Assembly: GCA_023150415.1 (NCBI GenBank)
Contig: JAKLKY010000005.1
Span: forward strand, 1-62,308
Direction: 5' to 3'
Length of the DNA: 62,308 nt
Source of the DNA: Alphaproteobacteria bacterium
GTDB lineage: Bacteria > Pseudomonadota > Alphaproteobacteria > Micavibrionales > Micavibrionaceae
Numbering within the stretch: position 1 is the stretch's first letter; the number at the start of each line of letters is the position of its first letter. Of the stretch, positions 55,090 through 62,308 are shown one piece after another. The translations under genes and the position numbers were made by a program. The notes beneath the pieces are model-generated. The model did not search any database, was not told the origin of the DNA, and worked only from the letters and a program-made list of their open reading frames with translations.

Positions 55090-56619
55090 ATGACAAGCAC
55101 AGCACGGGTTTTGGGATTTAGCGCCTTTAGTAAGCATCAGAAATCTCTGGAGATGGATTTAGCGATCGCGGCCTTTATGTCTGTATCGGCAAGAATCATG
55201 GTGGTGGATAACGACCTCAATATCCTTGCGGCAAACGAATCTGTCAAAAATTTTCTCAGCACCGTCGAAAGCGACATTAGAAAGGACTTGCCTAATTTCT
55301 CGGTCAAGACGCTGGTCGGAACAAATATCGACGAGTTTCATCAAAAACCTGAGCGTCAGAGAAAAATGCTGGCGGGTATGAAAGAGCCTTATGAGACAGC
55401 GATTGCCTTAGGAGGACATATTTTCGCGCTGCGTGCCACGCCTCTTTACTCATCCAAAGGCGTACGCCTTGGAACAGCAATGGAATGGTTTGATTCCAAA
55501 ATCATGGATTATTCCGGGCAGATCCAGGCCATTAATCGTTCGCAAGCCGTCATTCATTTTACAATGGATGGCACAATTACCGATGCAAACGAGAATTTTC
55601 TAAAAACCATGGGATACAGCCTGAGTGAAATCAAAGGCAAACATCACAGCATGTTTGCCGAACCCAGCTTTGCCGCCAGCAGTGATTACAAAGATTTCTG
55701 GAAGAAGCTCAACGAAGGACAGTTCTTCAGCGCGCAGTATAAACGTATAGGTAAAGGTGGGAAAGAAATTTGGATTGAGGCTTCCTACAACCCGATTTTT
55801 GATACGATGGGAAAGCCGTTCAAGGTTACGAAATTCGCAACAGATCTCACACCCCGCAAGGAAGAGAACTTGAAGTTAGCAAATGATTTTGAAACAAACG
55901 TTCAATCGCTGGTTCAAAATGTAGCCTCCTCAGCGACTGAAATGCAAGTTACGGCGCAAAACCTGGCCGCAGCTGCAGAAGAAACCAGCAATCAATCCAG
56001 TACTGTTGCTGCAGCGACAGAGGAGCTCTCATCATCGGTGAATGAAATTTCGCGGCAGGTTACAAATTCCGTGCGAATTGTAGGCGAAGCTGTGAACGAA
56101 GCAAAAAAATCCGAGCAGATGGTTGAGGGCCTTGTCAACGCAGCCTCAAAGATTGGCGAGGTTACATCCCTTATCTCGGATATCGCCGATCAGACGAACC
56201 TGCTGGCCTTGAATGCAACAATTGAAGCGGCCCGCGCAGGAGAAGCCGGAAAAGGTTTTGCTGTCGTCGCCGCTGAAGTGAAATCCCTGGCGGCGGAAAC
56301 AGCCAAAGCCACAGAGGAAATCAGGTCGCATATCAGCGGTATTCAAAGCGTGAGCCAATCCACTGCCGAGGCGATTAAGAAGATTACCGATGTCATTGGA
56401 CAGGTCAGCGAAATCAGCACCACCATTTCCGGCGCAGTTGAAGAGCAATCGGCCGCAACGCGTGAAGTATCGTCCAACATCATCGGCGTTCAGACGGCTG
56501 CCAATGAAACGGGGCAATCTTCGTCGACAATGCTGGAAGTTTCAAAAGATTTGTCCAAGCGATCGGTCGAACTGCAACAGCGTGTAACTAATTTCCTAGA
56601 AAAAGTCCGCGCAATGTAA
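55090..56619 (+). CDS. Soluble PAS-linked methyl-accepting chemotaxis protein
   Basis: The 509-residue receptor has no membrane span. Two PAS domains (about 20-140 and 145-265, the second with a [13 protein letters not shown]-like start and a PAC tail) precede the MCP signalling helices. The tip region [18 protein letters not shown] is canonical, so it should bind CheA/CheW. It may sense cytoplasmic redox or energy through PAS. No che genes lie next to it. A GGGGGAAG ribosome site precedes the ATG. Confidence 0.93.
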
Positions 56620-56647: not shown

Positions 56648-57889
56648 TTACCGCGCCTGATTATTGCTGATGCTGCCTTCGATACGGGCGGCGTGGGTGC
56701 TGAGGGCTTCTTCCACCAGCAAGGAGGTCAGCATCTCGCGGCGCAAAGCGGATTCAAAGCGATCGCGCCCCTGCATCAATTTGATCGCATCAAGCGCAAC
56801 TTCCTGCCGGCGCACATTCGCAGGCTTGTCATACAGATTGGTGTAGAAATCAGGGCTTTCGAGCATTTTGCGCGACAGCACTTCCATCTGCGCGTAATAG
56901 CTGGGCCGTTCACCCAGCAGTGTCTTCGCTTCGTCCGCTTTAATACCGAAATGCTGCAAGAGCGCCTGTAGATAAGGACCGCTGGATTGCGCGGGATCTG
57001 TCTGTGCACTGCGCGTCTTCATCGCAAGAATACTGGCCAGCGAATCGTGCGCGACGCTGGCCGCAGCAAACAAGGAACGCGCCTTCATATAATCGTCGGA
57101 CTTGACGGGAATTTGTTTGGCCAAAGCAGGATCAAGTGCGATCGGCCAATAGAGATTACGCGCCAGAGCCATGGCATCTTGCTCGTCATTACTGGAGTCG
57201 CTGTCAGAGAAATCAAGATCCAGCGTCAAGCTATTGTCTGCAAGACGTGTGAAGTCGATATCGCGGTTGAGACGGGCAAGGTCCGTGCCGCCCACTTTCT
57301 CCCCCGCGGTGATGTCGGCATTGGCGAGGTCATGCTGACAGAGATTGGCGAGCGCGCCGCTGCGGTCTTGCGGGTCGCAATAGACTTCGCGGAACTGGCG
57401 AAAGCGCGATTGAAAATCCTGATAATATCCACTGGCGGTGCTAGCCGCGCTGGCACCCGTGTAATCATCAAATAATGCAGCGTTCATGGCCAGGCGGCTG
57501 AGTTGACCGCGCTGCTCGCTGTCGGCGAGGTTACGCGCAAACGTGCCGATCTGACACAGGGACTCACTGGGGTGATAGTCCTTATGCGCCTCGGCTTGCA
57601 GACTTTGCTGCAGCCGTTGCGCGGCCGATTGGCGTTGGGCGTCCACCAGTCCGCCCATAATTTGATTATGCTGCGCGCCCACAGCCGTGAGTTGTTCGGT
57701 CATCAGCATCATCGCCGCGAGATAATTCTGAACAATCGTATTCTGCCAGCCCAGCATATCGCCGCAGAAGCTGAATATTTTTCCGCTGCCGCAATGGCCG
57801 GTGAGAACAGGATCGGTTCCCGTCCCTTCCTGCGCGATAGCGGTCCGCGTGAACAACAAAAGCGCAGCGATGAGTAAAACGCGGATCAT
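56648..57889 (-). CDS. Tandem exported paralog 4 (KDYxPSE family)
   Basis: The 413-residue product has a signal peptide (LLIAALLLFTRTAIAQEG). Shared family features are the helix MMLMTEQLTAVGAQHNQIMG, a heptad-like AQRQSAAQRLQQSLQ, then AHKDYHPSESLCQIGTFARNLA, YCDPQDRSG, and a C-terminal block SYYAQMEVLSRKMLE, then FYTNLYDKPANVRR. No recognised domain. The N-terminal Cys pattern of its siblings is reduced to C..FSFC. The ATG overlaps the stop of paralog 3 by 4 bp. It is the last of four leftward genes divergent from dotI, so an extracytoplasmic role in that secretion system is inferred. Confidence 0.8.
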   Translation of the reverse strand: MIRVLLIAALLLFTRTAIAQEGTGTDPVLTGHCGSGKIFSFCGDMLGWQNTIVQNYLAAMMLMTEQLTAVGAQHNQIMGGLVDAQRQSAAQRLQQSLQAEAHKDYHPSESLCQIGTFARNLADSEQRGQLSRLAMNAALFDDYTGASAASTASGYYQDFQSRFRQFREVYCDPQDRSGALANLCQHDLANADITAGEKVGGTDLARLNRDIDFTRLADNSLTLDLDFSDSDSSNDEQDAMALARNLYWPIALDPALAKQIPVKSDDYMKARSLFAAASVAHDSLASILAMKTRSAQTDPAQSSGPYLQALLQHFGIKADEAKTLLGERPSYYAQMEVLSRKMLESPDFYTNLYDKPANVRRQEVALDAIKLMQGRDRFESALRREMLTSLLVEEALSTHAARIEGSISNNQAR

Positions 57890-59169
57890 TGCGTCCAGCC
57901 CGTTTGGTTTTCGATTTGATCCTGGATGTCCATCAAGGACAATTCCAGCAGAACCGATAGCGAGGCCTCATTCCGCAGATAGCTTTTGAACAGGTCAAAT
58001 TTCTGCATCAGACCGATCGCCTGCAGCGCTACGCCCTTGCGGTCGACGTTGGCGGGTTTGTCGTAGAGGTTTGTATAGAAATCAGGGTTCTGGTAGATCT
58101 TCTTGGCCAGAACTTCCATCTGCGCGTAATAGCTTGGGTTGTCGCCCAGCAGCGCCTTAAGCTCTGCATCATTCTCAAGCCCCAGATCTTTCAGCAAGGC
58201 CTGCAAATAAGCATTTGATCCGCCGCTCCCGGCCGCTTTCATCCCGGCAATCGCGTTGAAAGAGTTTTCCGCCACGCTGCGCTTGGCCAGAAGTGAACGC
58301 ATATCCATATACACACGCTGCGTCGCACTGAGCTTCCCGGCCTGGCTTTCTAACCCGACCGTAGGGCGGCGAAAGACCTCGTGGCCATAGAGATTACTCG
58401 CCAGCGCCAGAATATCTTCCTCGCCGTTGTTTATTTTTGCATCGGTGAAATCAACATCCAGAGTCCACGGTGCGGCCAGCGTCGCGACATAGTCGATATC
58501 GCGGTTGGAGCGCGCGGGATCCGCTGCGCCGATATTGCCGCCTCCGTGATCGCAGAGATAGCCAAGGCCTGAATTGTTATCCAAAGGATCGCAATATTTT
58601 TCCTTGAACTGCGCCAGACGGTTTTGAATGTCACCGCTATAGCCCGTGGCGGCAGCGCTTCCTGTCTGGCCCAGCTGGCGGTCCTGGGAGCGCTGCGCCA
58701 GCACGACGGCGGTGAACTCCCCTTTGCGCTCAGAGGCGGCCAGCGATTTCGCGGCGGAGCCGATCTGGCACAGGCCTTCGCTGGGGTGATAGTCTTTATG
58801 CGCCTGGGCGCGCAGGCGCTGGATTGTTTGCTGCGTTTCCATTTGCTGTCCGGCATCAAGAAATGTGCCAAAAATTTGCACTTGCTGCATGGCGACTGTC
58901 GAGAATTGTTCAGCCATCAGCATGAGGGCGGGCAGGATATTATCCTCCCACAGGACGGACGTGATCCAAACACGCTGCGCTGTCAGCTCGCTGCGGTAAT
59001 GGTTTTTAAGACGCGCTTCGGTACTTTTCCATTGCTTGGAAGATTCATCTTTTGCTGTCGCGGGACAATTGCAGCATGCCTCCGCCGGTGGTGCTGTGAT
59101 CGTAAAGAGCGCAAGCAAGAGCGCGGAGAGCAAAGACAGGCGCAAGATTTTTGTTCCCTTGATCGGCAT
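57886..59169 (-). CDS. Tandem exported paralog 3 (KDYxPSE family)
   Basis: The 427-residue product has an N-terminal hydrophobic region (LRLSLLSALLLALFTITAPPAEA) and then CCNCPA. The core blocks are ALMLMAEQFSTVAMQQVQIFG, QAHKDYHPSEGLCQIGSAAKSLA, YCDPLDNNSGLGYLC, and SYYAQMEVLAKKIYQ then FYTNLYDKPANVDRKGVAL. The ATG at 59169 is chosen because GGAGG ends the previous gene 8 nt before it, in contrast to one at 59190, which overlaps that gene by 17 bp. The family is not recognised; export and an N-terminal Cys patch are common to its members. Confidence 0.8.
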   Translation of the reverse strand: MPIKGTKILRLSLLSALLLALFTITAPPAEACCNCPATAKDESSKQWKSTEARLKNHYRSELTAQRVWITSVLWEDNILPALMLMAEQFSTVAMQQVQIFGTFLDAGQQMETQQTIQRLRAQAHKDYHPSEGLCQIGSAAKSLAASERKGEFTAVVLAQRSQDRQLGQTGSAAATGYSGDIQNRLAQFKEKYCDPLDNNSGLGYLCDHGGGNIGAADPARSNRDIDYVATLAAPWTLDVDFTDAKINNGEEDILALASNLYGHEVFRRPTVGLESQAGKLSATQRVYMDMRSLLAKRSVAENSFNAIAGMKAAGSGGSNAYLQALLKDLGLENDAELKALLGDNPSYYAQMEVLAKKIYQNPDFYTNLYDKPANVDRKGVALQAIGLMQKFDLFKSYLRNEASLSVLLELSLMDIQDQIENQTGWTQ

Positions 59170-59173
59170 TCTT

Positions 59174-60469
59174 TTAGCCTCCGCTTTCATTTAACTTGTT
59201 GTTGGCTTGCTGCGCCCGTTTGTGCAGGCGTGAAGACAACAAGACCGATGTCACCATTTCCTGGCGCAGCTGACTTTCATACAGAGCCTGATCCAACATG
59301 CGCTCTACGGCGCGCAGTGCCACGCTCTTGCGCCGCGAATTTGCAGGGCCGTCATAGAGATTGGCATAGAAGGAAGGTGTCTGAAAAATGCGCTTAGCGA
59401 GAATTTCAAGCTGCGCGTAATGGCTCGGATTCTTGCCGATCAAGCCATCGATTTCCTGAGGTGGGACACCAAGCTCGGCCATTGCTGCATCCAGATACTG
59501 CCAGGTGTTGGTTGCGCTTTCTGGTGCGGCGGCTTTCAGGCCGACAATACTGCTGAAGGAATGCTGTGCCACGGCACGGCGTGCGGCAATTGTGCGCAAT
59601 GCGAAATACACGTGATCCTTGCTGTTGCGCTGTGGGCCCAGCGCCTGTTCGTTCATACTGCGCGTCAAGACCGTATGGCCGTAGAGGTTATTGCCCAGCG
59701 CCAGAACATCGCGCAGAGTCGGTGTTTCAGGAGCACCGGGTGCAACATTAATATCCAGTGTGCGCGGCTCCTCGATCATGCGTGCAAAGCTGATATCCGC
59801 GCCCGGGCGCGCCGAACCTGAACTTGCTGTTTTACATTCGGGATTGATGCCGTTGTTGTCGGTGGCGCGGCAATAGGTCTTGGTGTATTCGGCCCAGCGC
59901 TGGAGTTTATCCTGATCCTCCCCGCCTGTGGCCACAGATCCGGCCGCGCCCAGATCGCGCTTGAGCTGGCGCGCATCCAGAAACCGCACAGCCAGATCGC
60001 CATGCGCTTCGGTCGTGGCCAGCGAACGCACAGCGGTGCCGATGCTGCACAAATTCTGCGAGGGCATGTAATCTTTCTGCGCGCGGGAATGGCCTTCTTG
60101 CAGCACACGTTGCGTGCTGAGCTGCTGATCGGCATCCAACAAAATTCCAACTGTCATGATTTGTTTTGCAGCGATTGCCGTCATTTGCTCTGTGAAATGC
60201 ATCAGGGTAGGTAAAACCTGCTGCTTGAAAAAACTTTCATACAGCCACACACGATGTGCATCCATCGCCGCAGATGCGTCGGCGATGATACTTTGCTCGT
60301 ATTTGTCATCGGCGTGGTCATTGGCGATATGTTGGCGCGCCTTCGGACAATCATCCGGTCGGCACCCCTTGCAGCCACTGCATCTGGCCCAAGCAGCATC
60401 GGCGGCGATCAAGAACGCGCAGAAAAGCAGCACGGGAAATACGAACGTCATCCGCCGCAGCATTTTCAT
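59174..60469 (-). CDS. Tandem exported paralog 2 (KDYxPSE family)
   Basis: The 431-residue product has an N-terminal membrane/signal helix (FVFPVLLFCAFLIAADAAWA) followed by CSGCKGCRPDDCP, a Cys patch that could bind metal or form disulfides. Blocks shared with its siblings: LPTLMHFTEQMTAIAAKQIMT, KDYMPSQNLCSIGTAVRSLA, YCRATDNNGINPEC, and HYAQLEILAKRIFQ then FYANLYDGPANSRRKSVAL. Its last codons supply the GGAGG ribosome site for paralog 3. It starts in an ATGA overlap with paralog 1, after a GGAGGAG motif. Confidence 0.8.
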   Translation of the reverse strand: MKMLRRMTFVFPVLLFCAFLIAADAAWARCSGCKGCRPDDCPKARQHIANDHADDKYEQSIIADASAAMDAHRVWLYESFFKQQVLPTLMHFTEQMTAIAAKQIMTVGILLDADQQLSTQRVLQEGHSRAQKDYMPSQNLCSIGTAVRSLATTEAHGDLAVRFLDARQLKRDLGAAGSVATGGEDQDKLQRWAEYTKTYCRATDNNGINPECKTASSGSARPGADISFARMIEEPRTLDINVAPGAPETPTLRDVLALGNNLYGHTVLTRSMNEQALGPQRNSKDHVYFALRTIAARRAVAQHSFSSIVGLKAAAPESATNTWQYLDAAMAELGVPPQEIDGLIGKNPSHYAQLEILAKRIFQTPSFYANLYDGPANSRRKSVALRAVERMLDQALYESQLRQEMVTSVLLSSRLHKRAQQANNKLNESGG

Positions 60470-61833
60470 TTGGCTCCTCCCGCCCGCGCAGTTTGGGGCA
60501 AGGTGCGGCGCACAGCCTCGAAACGATCATTCAATGCGCTTGAAAGCCAGACGGAAAGATTCATCTCCTGCCTCAATTCGCTTTCAAACATGGCCCGATC
60601 CAGCATCAGGTCAATGGCTGTCAGCGCCGCAGCCTGGCGCTGGATATTGGCGGGCTTGTCTACCAGGCCCGCATAAAATAACGGGTCTTGATACAGTTTC
60701 TGCGCCAACACTTCGAGCTGCACATACTGGCTGGGGTTGTCGTCGATCAGGCTGTAAACCTCCTGATCGGGAACGCCCAGCGCCTTAAAGGCAGCGCCCA
60801 GCGTTTTGATGGTTTGGGGATTTTCAGGATCACCATCATTTGTGCTTTTGATGGCTGCAATCGCGGCAAGAGAGTTCTGCGCGACACTGCGCTTGGCGGC
60901 AATCGATCGCAGTGCCAGATACCATTGCGCCTTTTGATCGAGCGCAAGATCTGCAGGCGGCGTATTCTGGCCCAGCGTTTTGTGGCCATAAAGATTGGCT
61001 GCAAGCGCAAAGACATCTTCGCCGTCATCACCGATTGCGCCAACGCCTGAGAAATTTGCATTAAGCGTGCGCGCCTTATCAATCAGACGGGTATAATCGA
61101 TGTCGATATTGGTGCGCGCAATGTTCGTAGAGCCCGTGCGCTTGCAAAATGGATGCAGGCCGGATTCTTCATTTCCGGGCACGCCGTTATTGTCGTTGGG
61201 GTCACAATAATTTTCCTGATATTGGGCCCAGCGCGAAAGCCAGTCCGCATCTTGTCCTTGCGCGTTGGCTGTTCCGGTTGTGGCAAGCTGGCGTGCCAGC
61301 GCCCAATCTGCCACCGCGACTTTGCTGTAGCGCGTACGGATTTCCGCCTGCGCCAGCGAACGGACATTCGAGCCCACCGCACATAGCGTTTCCGAAGGCT
61401 GATAATCTTTATAAGCAGCGAGTTGCAGCTCTTGCATCTGACGCTGCGCCCGCAGCTGGTTTTGCGCATCGAGCATGGTACCCGCCATATAGGCCTGATG
61501 TATGCCTACGGCTGAGAGCTGCTCGGTCATGAGCATCAGCCCCGGCAAGACGGACTGGCGGAAAAACGTATCGGTCCACCACGTACGGTGAAGAGCGAAT
61601 TTCTGGGATATGTCACCGGTCAGCAGATAGCGATATACATCATGATAATTGCTTATAATGCTGCGCACCGTGGGGCAGACATTGCTGGGGCAACCTTTGC
61701 AACACGCCGCCCATGCGACGCGTACAGGGATCAGCAGTGCAGGTACCAGAAGAGCGATAGCCAGCACAGCCAGAAGCAAACGCCTCCGGCCAAAGCCGCG
61801 CTGTGTATGGATTTTCCGCACCATCTCCCCCAT
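60466..61833 (-). CDS. Tandem exported paralog 1 (KDYxPSE family)
   Basis: The 455-residue product has the longest leader (RRLLLAVLAIALLVPALLIPV) followed by CCKGCPSNVCP. Blocks: LHRTWWTDTFFRQSVLPGLML, YKDYQPSETLCAVGSNVRSLA, YCDPNDNNGVPGNEE, and QYVQLEVLAQKLYQ then FYAGLVDKPANIQRQAAAL. It is the first gene of the leftward run. Start 61833 or the ATG at 61824 are both possible; neither has a clear ribosome site. It is divergent from dotI with a gap of about 105 bp containing both promoters. Confidence 0.8.
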   Translation of the reverse strand: MGEMVRKIHTQRGFGRRRLLLAVLAIALLVPALLIPVRVAWAACCKGCPSNVCPTVRSIISNYHDVYRYLLTGDISQKFALHRTWWTDTFFRQSVLPGLMLMTEQLSAVGIHQAYMAGTMLDAQNQLRAQRQMQELQLAAYKDYQPSETLCAVGSNVRSLAQAEIRTRYSKVAVADWALARQLATTGTANAQGQDADWLSRWAQYQENYCDPNDNNGVPGNEESGLHPFCKRTGSTNIARTNIDIDYTRLIDKARTLNANFSGVGAIGDDGEDVFALAANLYGHKTLGQNTPPADLALDQKAQWYLALRSIAAKRSVAQNSLAAIAAIKSTNDGDPENPQTIKTLGAAFKALGVPDQEVYSLIDDNPSQYVQLEVLAQKLYQDPLFYAGLVDKPANIQRQAAALTAIDLMLDRAMFESELRQEMNLSVWLSSALNDRFEAVRRTLPQTARAGGAK

Positions 61834-61938
61834 CTTAGCACAGGAAAAATCCCTTTGTCAGTTTTCAGTTGTGACAGGCCTTGCGCAAATGGCAGGAGGG
61901 TTCTTGTATCCGAGGTGCTTTTGGGCGATGATAAAAGA

Positions 61939-62308
61939 ATGGCACAGAGTGCAAAACCAGCCCCGAATGAACCGCAAACCCGCGACACCCCGGCCGATGA
62001 TACCAGCGGCCTGGGCAGGGTTGTGATCCGCAACGAATTCTATCGCGACGGCTACCGCAACATGCTGCGCCTGGTGGTGATTCAGGGGGCGGTTATTCTC
62101 GGTCTTTTGATTGTTGTCTTTATGATTTTACAGGCGCGGGAGCCGGAAAACCGCTATTTCGCCACCACCGAAGATGGCCGCCTGGTGCCCATGGTGCCCC
62201 TCAACCAGCCCAATCTCAGCACCCCCGCGTTAATGTCCTGGACCGCTCAGGCCGCGACGGAAGTCATGACCTTCGGCTTTAATGACTACCGCCGCCGGTT
62301 ACAGGAAG
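61939..62308 (+). CDS. dotI: DotI/IcmL (TraM)-like component of type IVB secretion, N-terminal part
   Basis: The gene runs off the window (123 codons visible). After a polar N-terminus come FYRDGYRNMLRLVVIQGAV and a membrane helix (VILGLLIVVFMILQ). NRYFATTEDGRLVPMVPLNQ and MSWTAQAATEVMTFGFNDYR follow; these are highly characteristic of DotI/IcmL, an inner-membrane core component of Dot/Icm and IncI transfer systems. The ATG at 61939 has a weak ribosome site; a GTG at 61915 is an alternative in frame. Further dot/icm genes would be expected beyond the right edge. Confidence 0.88.
   Translation, partial: MAQSAKPAPNEPQTRDTPADDTSGLGRVVIRNEFYRDGYRNMLRLVVIQGAVILGLLIVVFMILQAREPENRYFATTEDGRLVPMVPLNQPNLSTPALMSWTAQAATEVMTFGFNDYRRRLQE

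Follow-up and report, generated by a model that had tools for sequence, protein, structure and literature searches.

What are the four tandem genes that lie beside dotI, the gene of a core subunit of type IVB secretion systems, in a bacterium of the family Micavibrionaceae, and why are there four of them? The genes occupy positions 56,648 to 61,833 of contig JAKLKY010000005.1 (GenBank assembly GCA_023150415.1), which we analysed at its full length of 62,308 nt and call the window; it is contig C55 of a 96-contig Micavibrionaceae draft (G000, 92.5% complete) based on a metagenome-assembled genome. We find it highly likely that the products of the four genes are divergent IcmX/TraW (VirB5-class) subunits and belong to a chromosomal type IVB secretion system (T4BSS) of this bacterium. 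They were assigned to this class on the strength of a fold match for gene 3, a chain of profile comparisons and the published equivalence of TraW, IcmX and VirB5.

Four coupled paralogs beside dotI

The features of the locus are listed below, with the evidence in brackets; front, middle and last are the paralog classes discussed further on.

60466..61833, minus strand: paralog 1, 455 aa, IcmX/TraW-like, front class (open reading frame (ORF), alignment, trees)
59174..60469, minus strand: paralog 2, 431 aa, IcmX/TraW-like, front class (ORF, alignment, trees)
57886..59169, minus strand: paralog 3, 427 aa, IcmX/TraW-like, middle class (the longest ORF, 434 aa, starts from 59190)
56648..57889, minus strand: paralog 4, 413 aa, IcmX/TraW-like, last class (ORF, trees)
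61834..61938, no strand: dotI/array intergenic region, 105 bp, divergent (sequence)
61939..62307, plus strand: 5' part of dotI/icmL, truncated where the contig ends (remainder at G000:C57:2-325)

The paralogs align end to end with 31-44% pairwise identity and 80+ invariant columns. Common to all four, in this order, are the motifs LM.TEQ, KDYxPSx.LCxIG, YC..DN, YxQxExLxxK and FYxNLxDxPAN, with small exceptions: gene 3 has AEQ instead of TEQ, gene 4 has YCDPQDR, and gene 1 has LCAVG and FYAGLVDKPAN. Genes 1 and 2, as well as genes 3 and 4, are coupled by ATGA overlaps, and a GGAGG is found within the last codons of gene 1, ahead of gene 2. The ATG at 59169, directly past the stop of gene 2 and preceded by a GGAGG in the final codons of that gene, is most likely the better start of gene 3, judging from the sequence. 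A predicted Sec-type signal helix ending in AxA was read at the N-terminus of each paralog; in paralogs 1-3 a Cys-rich patch follows right behind it (CCKGC in paralog 1), and paralog 4 has neither this patch nor the N-terminal beta domain of most last-class relatives. A preliminary description of the window had reported four tandem, coupled leftward paralogs with shared motif blocks, a signal helix in each and a Cys-rich patch in three, and all of this was borne out. The 105-bp gap between dotI and the array presumably carries, given its position, promoters for both sides.

Family identity

The same description called the family unrecognised. With respect to pairwise and hidden Markov model (HMM) library searches this is right: neither single paralogs nor a 125-row profile had a Pfam, NCBIfam or PDB sequence match. 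Fold comparison and profile chains, on the other hand, lead to IcmX and TraW.

The AlphaFold2 model of gene 3, built with 125 aligned sequences (pLDDT, the predicted local distance difference test score, 88), is all helical, with one 92-residue helix and a 55-residue C-terminal helix. Structure prediction of one member had been suggested in the preliminary description, and for gene 3 it led to a Legionella IcmX chain: in the Foldseek search against PDB the model had one significant match, 9ngy_AP1 (E 2.6e-4, probability 1.00), the next match having E 0.53. Entry 9ngy is the Legionella DotA-IcmX protochannel, the structure of which is attributed to Yue et al. 2025 in articles that cite it (PMC12981334, PMC12857230). 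As DotA of this entry is chain FP1 (1048 aa), chain AP1 (417 residues) was taken, by exclusion, to be IcmX. The array proteins resemble Legionella IcmX also in being encoded with dot genes and in having a DotA partner; from their signal helices with AxA sites and their conserved Cys they are predicted to be exported to the periplasm, as IcmX is.

Profile comparison gave a second, independent path that runs in two steps. The window-type arrays (A2) matched the more divergent arrays found elsewhere in the order, in other families, with E 6e-56, and the divergent arrays matched TraW of IncI-type plasmids with E 5.1e-20 (probability 99.3). The controls, 12 other families and a reversed TraW decoy, all had probability <=2. 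The TraW HMM also matched sister-family array members without this intermediate; in the small set searched, the best E was 5.8e-10. TraW itself, whether alone or as a profile, had chance matches only in PDB; therefore, the equivalence of IcmX and TraW was taken from PMC12624023 and not from sequence. According to that source TraW, IcmX and VirB5 are equivalents of each other and periplasmic, TraY, DotA and VirB6 likewise are equivalents, and each of these proteins is pentameric.

The likeness to TraW (IncI1 plasmid R64 and alphaproteobacterial plasmids; NF033888) is one of profile-detectable homology: TraW has 390-430 aa and a signal peptide, and shares with the arrays Cys blocks (P..C; YC...C) and a block of the Y-x-N-x-x-Y-x-x-L type in the same order. 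TraW is present in single copy between traV and traX-traY, whereas the arrays lie beside dotI and, unlike TraW, carry the extra Cys patch after the signal helix.

Several observations weigh against the assignment. The Foldseek TM-score (template modelling score) was low, 0.31, so the match is not tight, though such a value is expected for long helices in differing conformations. For the model of a last-class copy (pLDDT 70), in which the beta domain dominates, IcmX was absent from the best 50 fold matches. Direct comparison of A2 with TraW gave E 0.0015 and the motif order YC...C followed by the C-terminal block, with an hhalign probability as weak as 17%. The TraW profile had no match in the window's genome, in a search that had no positive control, and hence the link was made via the divergent arrays. 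Finally, dotC was not found in the draft genome of the window, which is 92.5% complete.

One could argue that the genes form a new pilus or envelope family unrelated to VirB5 and IcmX, and that the fold and profile links are artefacts of helix bundles. The missing library matches and the low TM-score would agree with that; however, all controls of the two-step profile chain, which attains E 5e-20, were negative, and among the many long-helix proteins in the PDB library no chain other than that of IcmX passed the threshold. We consider such an explanation very improbable.

In sum, homology to the IcmX/TraW family was found both by fold and by profile, and the genes accompany a type IVB system in which DotA/TraY is present. 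The presence of a single gene per system, as in known members, was not observed (there are 2-6 genes). This property describes the known members and stands outside the homology definition; family membership is therefore retained, and the system is a variant.

Type IVB gene context

The piece of dotI at the window's end and the piece on contig C57 join in frame across an 8-base overlap. On C57 dotI is followed by dotH, a short dotG, dotF, a DUF6750/TraQ-like fusion, a DUF6750-like gene, dotN and a dotO-like gene, the last being so labelled by its position and a weak VirB4 match of the L042 homologue. Since dotI runs on into this series, the T4BSS of the window's genome is, judged by its genes, genuine; dotI is not isolated, and only an isolated dotI would have spoken against the preliminary description here. 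The core set of a type IVB system was found as dotI, dotH, dotG, dotF, dotN, DotA and a 762-aa TraG-D_C coupling-protein-like ORF in the window's genome, and as dotB, dotC and dotD beside the array in relatives. Genes dotI, dotH, dotG and dotF have one copy each in the cluster.

Two side observations concern these genes. The fusion (L004 4576-6351) is a 591-aa membrane protein in which, by eye, three DUF6750-like (IncI TraR-type) repeats and a TraQ-like domain can be seen; a free DUF6750-like protein comes after it, and the length of the fusion varies between genera from ~330 to 610 aa. Outside the dot cluster, adjoining a gapR-like gene, lies the gene of a second DotI/IcmL-like protein (L005, G000:C12, 5952-6629), a divergent one that bears a signal peptide.

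Distribution of the arrays

A profile of the four paralogs found array members in 49 of 58 related genomes, therefore the similarity is far beyond chance. There were 54 loci with members in the genome collection, and in the 40 loci readable on both sides the array was directly beside dotI, in divergent orientation. These 40 complete arrays had five genes in 25 cases, three in 8, four in 6 and six in 1, although single counts may be off by one, being simple longest-ORF calls. The closed genome G022 (L124, L125, L139) has dotI, dotH, dotG, dotF and dotN, two icmX-like genes and three dotA genes. Members thus go with dot/icm genes, whereas their occurrence mainly in genomes without such genes would have counted against the preliminary description; the claim of an exported component of the lineage's Dot/Icm-like system is upheld by the dotI cluster, by the 40 arrays beside dotI and by the dotB, dotC and dotD genes of relatives.

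In many relatives flgK and flgL are found beyond the array, followed by dotB, dotC and dotD on the opposite strand. Genes of ~800 and ~397 aa downstream of relatives' arrays were considered as dotL and dotM; these candidates were rejected, as by sequence the products read as FlgK and FlgL. In the window a PAS/methyl-accepting chemotaxis-type gene (55090-56619) comes after the array and takes the place that flgK-flgL occupy in most relatives; at its far end the window's array locus has thus been rearranged, as far as gene content tells.

Outside the family, sister families f3 and f5 have four-gene arrays of their own, several of them adjoining dotD-dotC-dotB, and in f7 (G047; L137) only one IcmX-like gene lies between dotI and flgK. 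At L169 (G274:C3, 8774-15855) another single IcmX/TraW-like gene and a DotA gene are transcribed away from each other, separated by a few short genes; no further dot genes were recognised nearby. In a distant alphaproteobacterial family we saw four tandem IcmX-like genes (L167, G158:C1, 9430-14195), which may be another independent multiplication; within 19 kb no dot gene was recognised. The suggestion that the array is specific to its lineage thus holds in part: arrays occur family-wide, but they are not unique to the species and separate ones exist in sister families.

Paralog classes and their history

Position labels cluster strongly on the tree of IcmX-like proteins, with 26 changes as compared with 109 in shuffles. 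A single clade unites the last-position copies in the mixture-model tree (SH-aLRT, the Shimodaira-Hasegawa-like approximate likelihood ratio test, 99), and most other array copies fall in a front or a middle group; front or middle copies of the L061/L069/L073/L074 lineage and of L080 lie outside the main groups. Three-gene arrays (L042, L043, L072) have one front, one middle and one last copy, and the array of the window reads front, front, middle, last. The trees indicate that the three classes are ancient. Paralogs 1 and 2 form a local front pair, a lineage-specific duplicate (SH-aLRT 94), so the origin by local duplication that had been proposed for the run applies to this pair, but the run as a whole holds three ancient classes. 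The position trees led us to reject recent local duplication as the source of the entire run.

The f3 and f5 arrays are separate from the Micavibrionaceae clade (SH 85). Given this and the single copy of f7, multiplication of IcmX seems to have happened more than once, on a tree whose deep branches are long and weakly supported.

Most last-class relatives have a longer N-terminus, and the N-terminal regions of array proteins vary by up to ~700 extra residues. In the one last-class copy modelled, the IcmX part is preceded by a membrane helix and then a beta-sandwich domain. Such an N-terminal extension, with the beta-sandwich at residues 48-200, is noted at L088 12870-14705 and in other last-class copies, fused to the IcmX-like part. 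The best fold matches of the beta-sandwich are bacterial adhesin repeats, though weak ones (4p99, E 8e-4). Such a domain could suggest that extra copies work off the stalk as secreted adhesins or effectors merely derived from IcmX, and a truncated IcmX is reported to occur outside Legionella in work cited by PMC12981334. Yet all classes retain the core blocks, among them the Cys positions and the block of the C-terminal helix, and the last-class copy of the window is without any beta domain; an adhesin or effector role has, in our estimate, little probability.

DotA triplet and proposed composition of the stalk

Using a TraY/DotA profile we found in the window's genome three tandem, coupled DotA/TraY genes (979, 948 and 898 aa; L113, G000:C28, 1343-9836), two of which have products 40-42% identical to the third. 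Exactly three DotA genes were present in 25/25 Micavibrionaceae regions read, with position-wise orthology across genera, and one DotA gene in both regions read from other families (G037, G049). Legionella has one IcmX and one DotA, each pentameric; the arrays differ from it in having 2-6 IcmX-like genes along with three DotA genes, and show no sequence similarity to it by direct search. We know of no array of several paralogs that forms one stalk. In reviews, the stalks of type IV secretion systems (T4SS) are described as pentameric, built from a single VirB5-class protein and a single VirB6-class protein (PMC12624023). A likeness is seen to the type IVA proteins VirB5/TrwJ/CagL and VirB6/TrwI, where a periplasmic pentamer sits on an inner-membrane pentamer and there is a pilus tip (PMC12624023); VirB5 itself had no sequence or fold match to the arrays in our searches.

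Each paralog could make one ring, the rings being stacked to give a longer conduit. Copy number that varies freely between species fits this idea, as does the 15-nm extracellular extension in activated Legionella (PMC12981334), but the multiplication of DotA, an inner-membrane base protein, is left unexplained, and we regard stacking as quite improbable.

Three things lead us to prefer a stalk of mixed composition: the paralogs share one operon, their ancient classes have been retained together, and the DotA triplet is obligatory. The Micavibrionaceae would have a hetero-oligomeric T4SS stalk in which three ancient VirB5/IcmX classes, often encoded by five genes, as many as a pentamer has subunits, stand on three different DotA proteins; to this reading we assign a probability of about 0.47, just short of an even chance. 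Counted against it is the number of paralogs, which runs from 2 (G022) to 6 with three DotA and is not always five. A universal heteropentamer with one of each subunit was rejected, as complete arrays hold 3-6 genes and the closed genome G022 holds 2.

In the mechanism that we propose each array protein would be exported by Sec. By analogy with the Legionella and R388 structures, the periplasmic subunits would then assemble on a DotA (VirB6-class) membrane platform and serve as central stalk or protochannel within the DotG/DotH cage. The stalk would probably be built from several different subunits rather than from five identical ones. The Legionella stalk or protochannel sits on DotA and extends upon contact (PMC12981334, PMC12857230); similarly, contact with a target cell might cause the stalk to rearrange into a conduit or tip and to extend. 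Among the options of pilus, channel or substrate, named in the preliminary description, a channel/tip fits best. Because the locus is chromosomal and its synteny holds throughout the family, the machine is probably directed at a prey or partner cell; a purpose in predation we infer from the lineage.

It might be, instead, that the VirB5-class paralogs each form a homomeric stalk or tip of their own, swapped, e.g. for different prey surfaces. VirB5-class proteins are thought to touch recipient cells at the pilus tip (PMC12624023), and both the great variation in N-terminal length and the repeated, lineage-wise duplication of front and middle classes would suit such a use. Still, all copies form a single translationally coupled run, and nothing points to their being expressed separately or switched; the classes keep their position and are not shuffled, and dotI, dotH, dotG and dotF are single in the cluster. 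We hold exchangeable homomeric tips to be unlikely, though far from implausible.

Implications for Micavibrio-type bacteria

The Micavibrio group has a cultured member that preys epibiotically on Gram-negative bacteria, and the 2011 genome paper on M. aeruginosavorus ARL-13 reported that evidence for type III or IV secretion was lacking (PMC3189940). The latter statement is at odds with the dot genes of G022, if G022 is M. aeruginosavorus. In the open-licence literature we found no paper on such a system in Micavibrio.

With the present data a conserved chromosomal Dot/Icm-like machine is identified across the Micavibrio group, and the array system becomes a concrete candidate for how Micavibrio-type cells reach into prey. 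It offers a natural case in which both central channel proteins of a T4SS, VirB5/IcmX and VirB6/DotA, are split into co-inherited paralogs, so that T4SS channels can be tested for the order and stoichiometry of their subunits and for the specificity of their tip. If the stalk is indeed mixed, the order of the paralogs would encode its symmetry, gating and target recognition.
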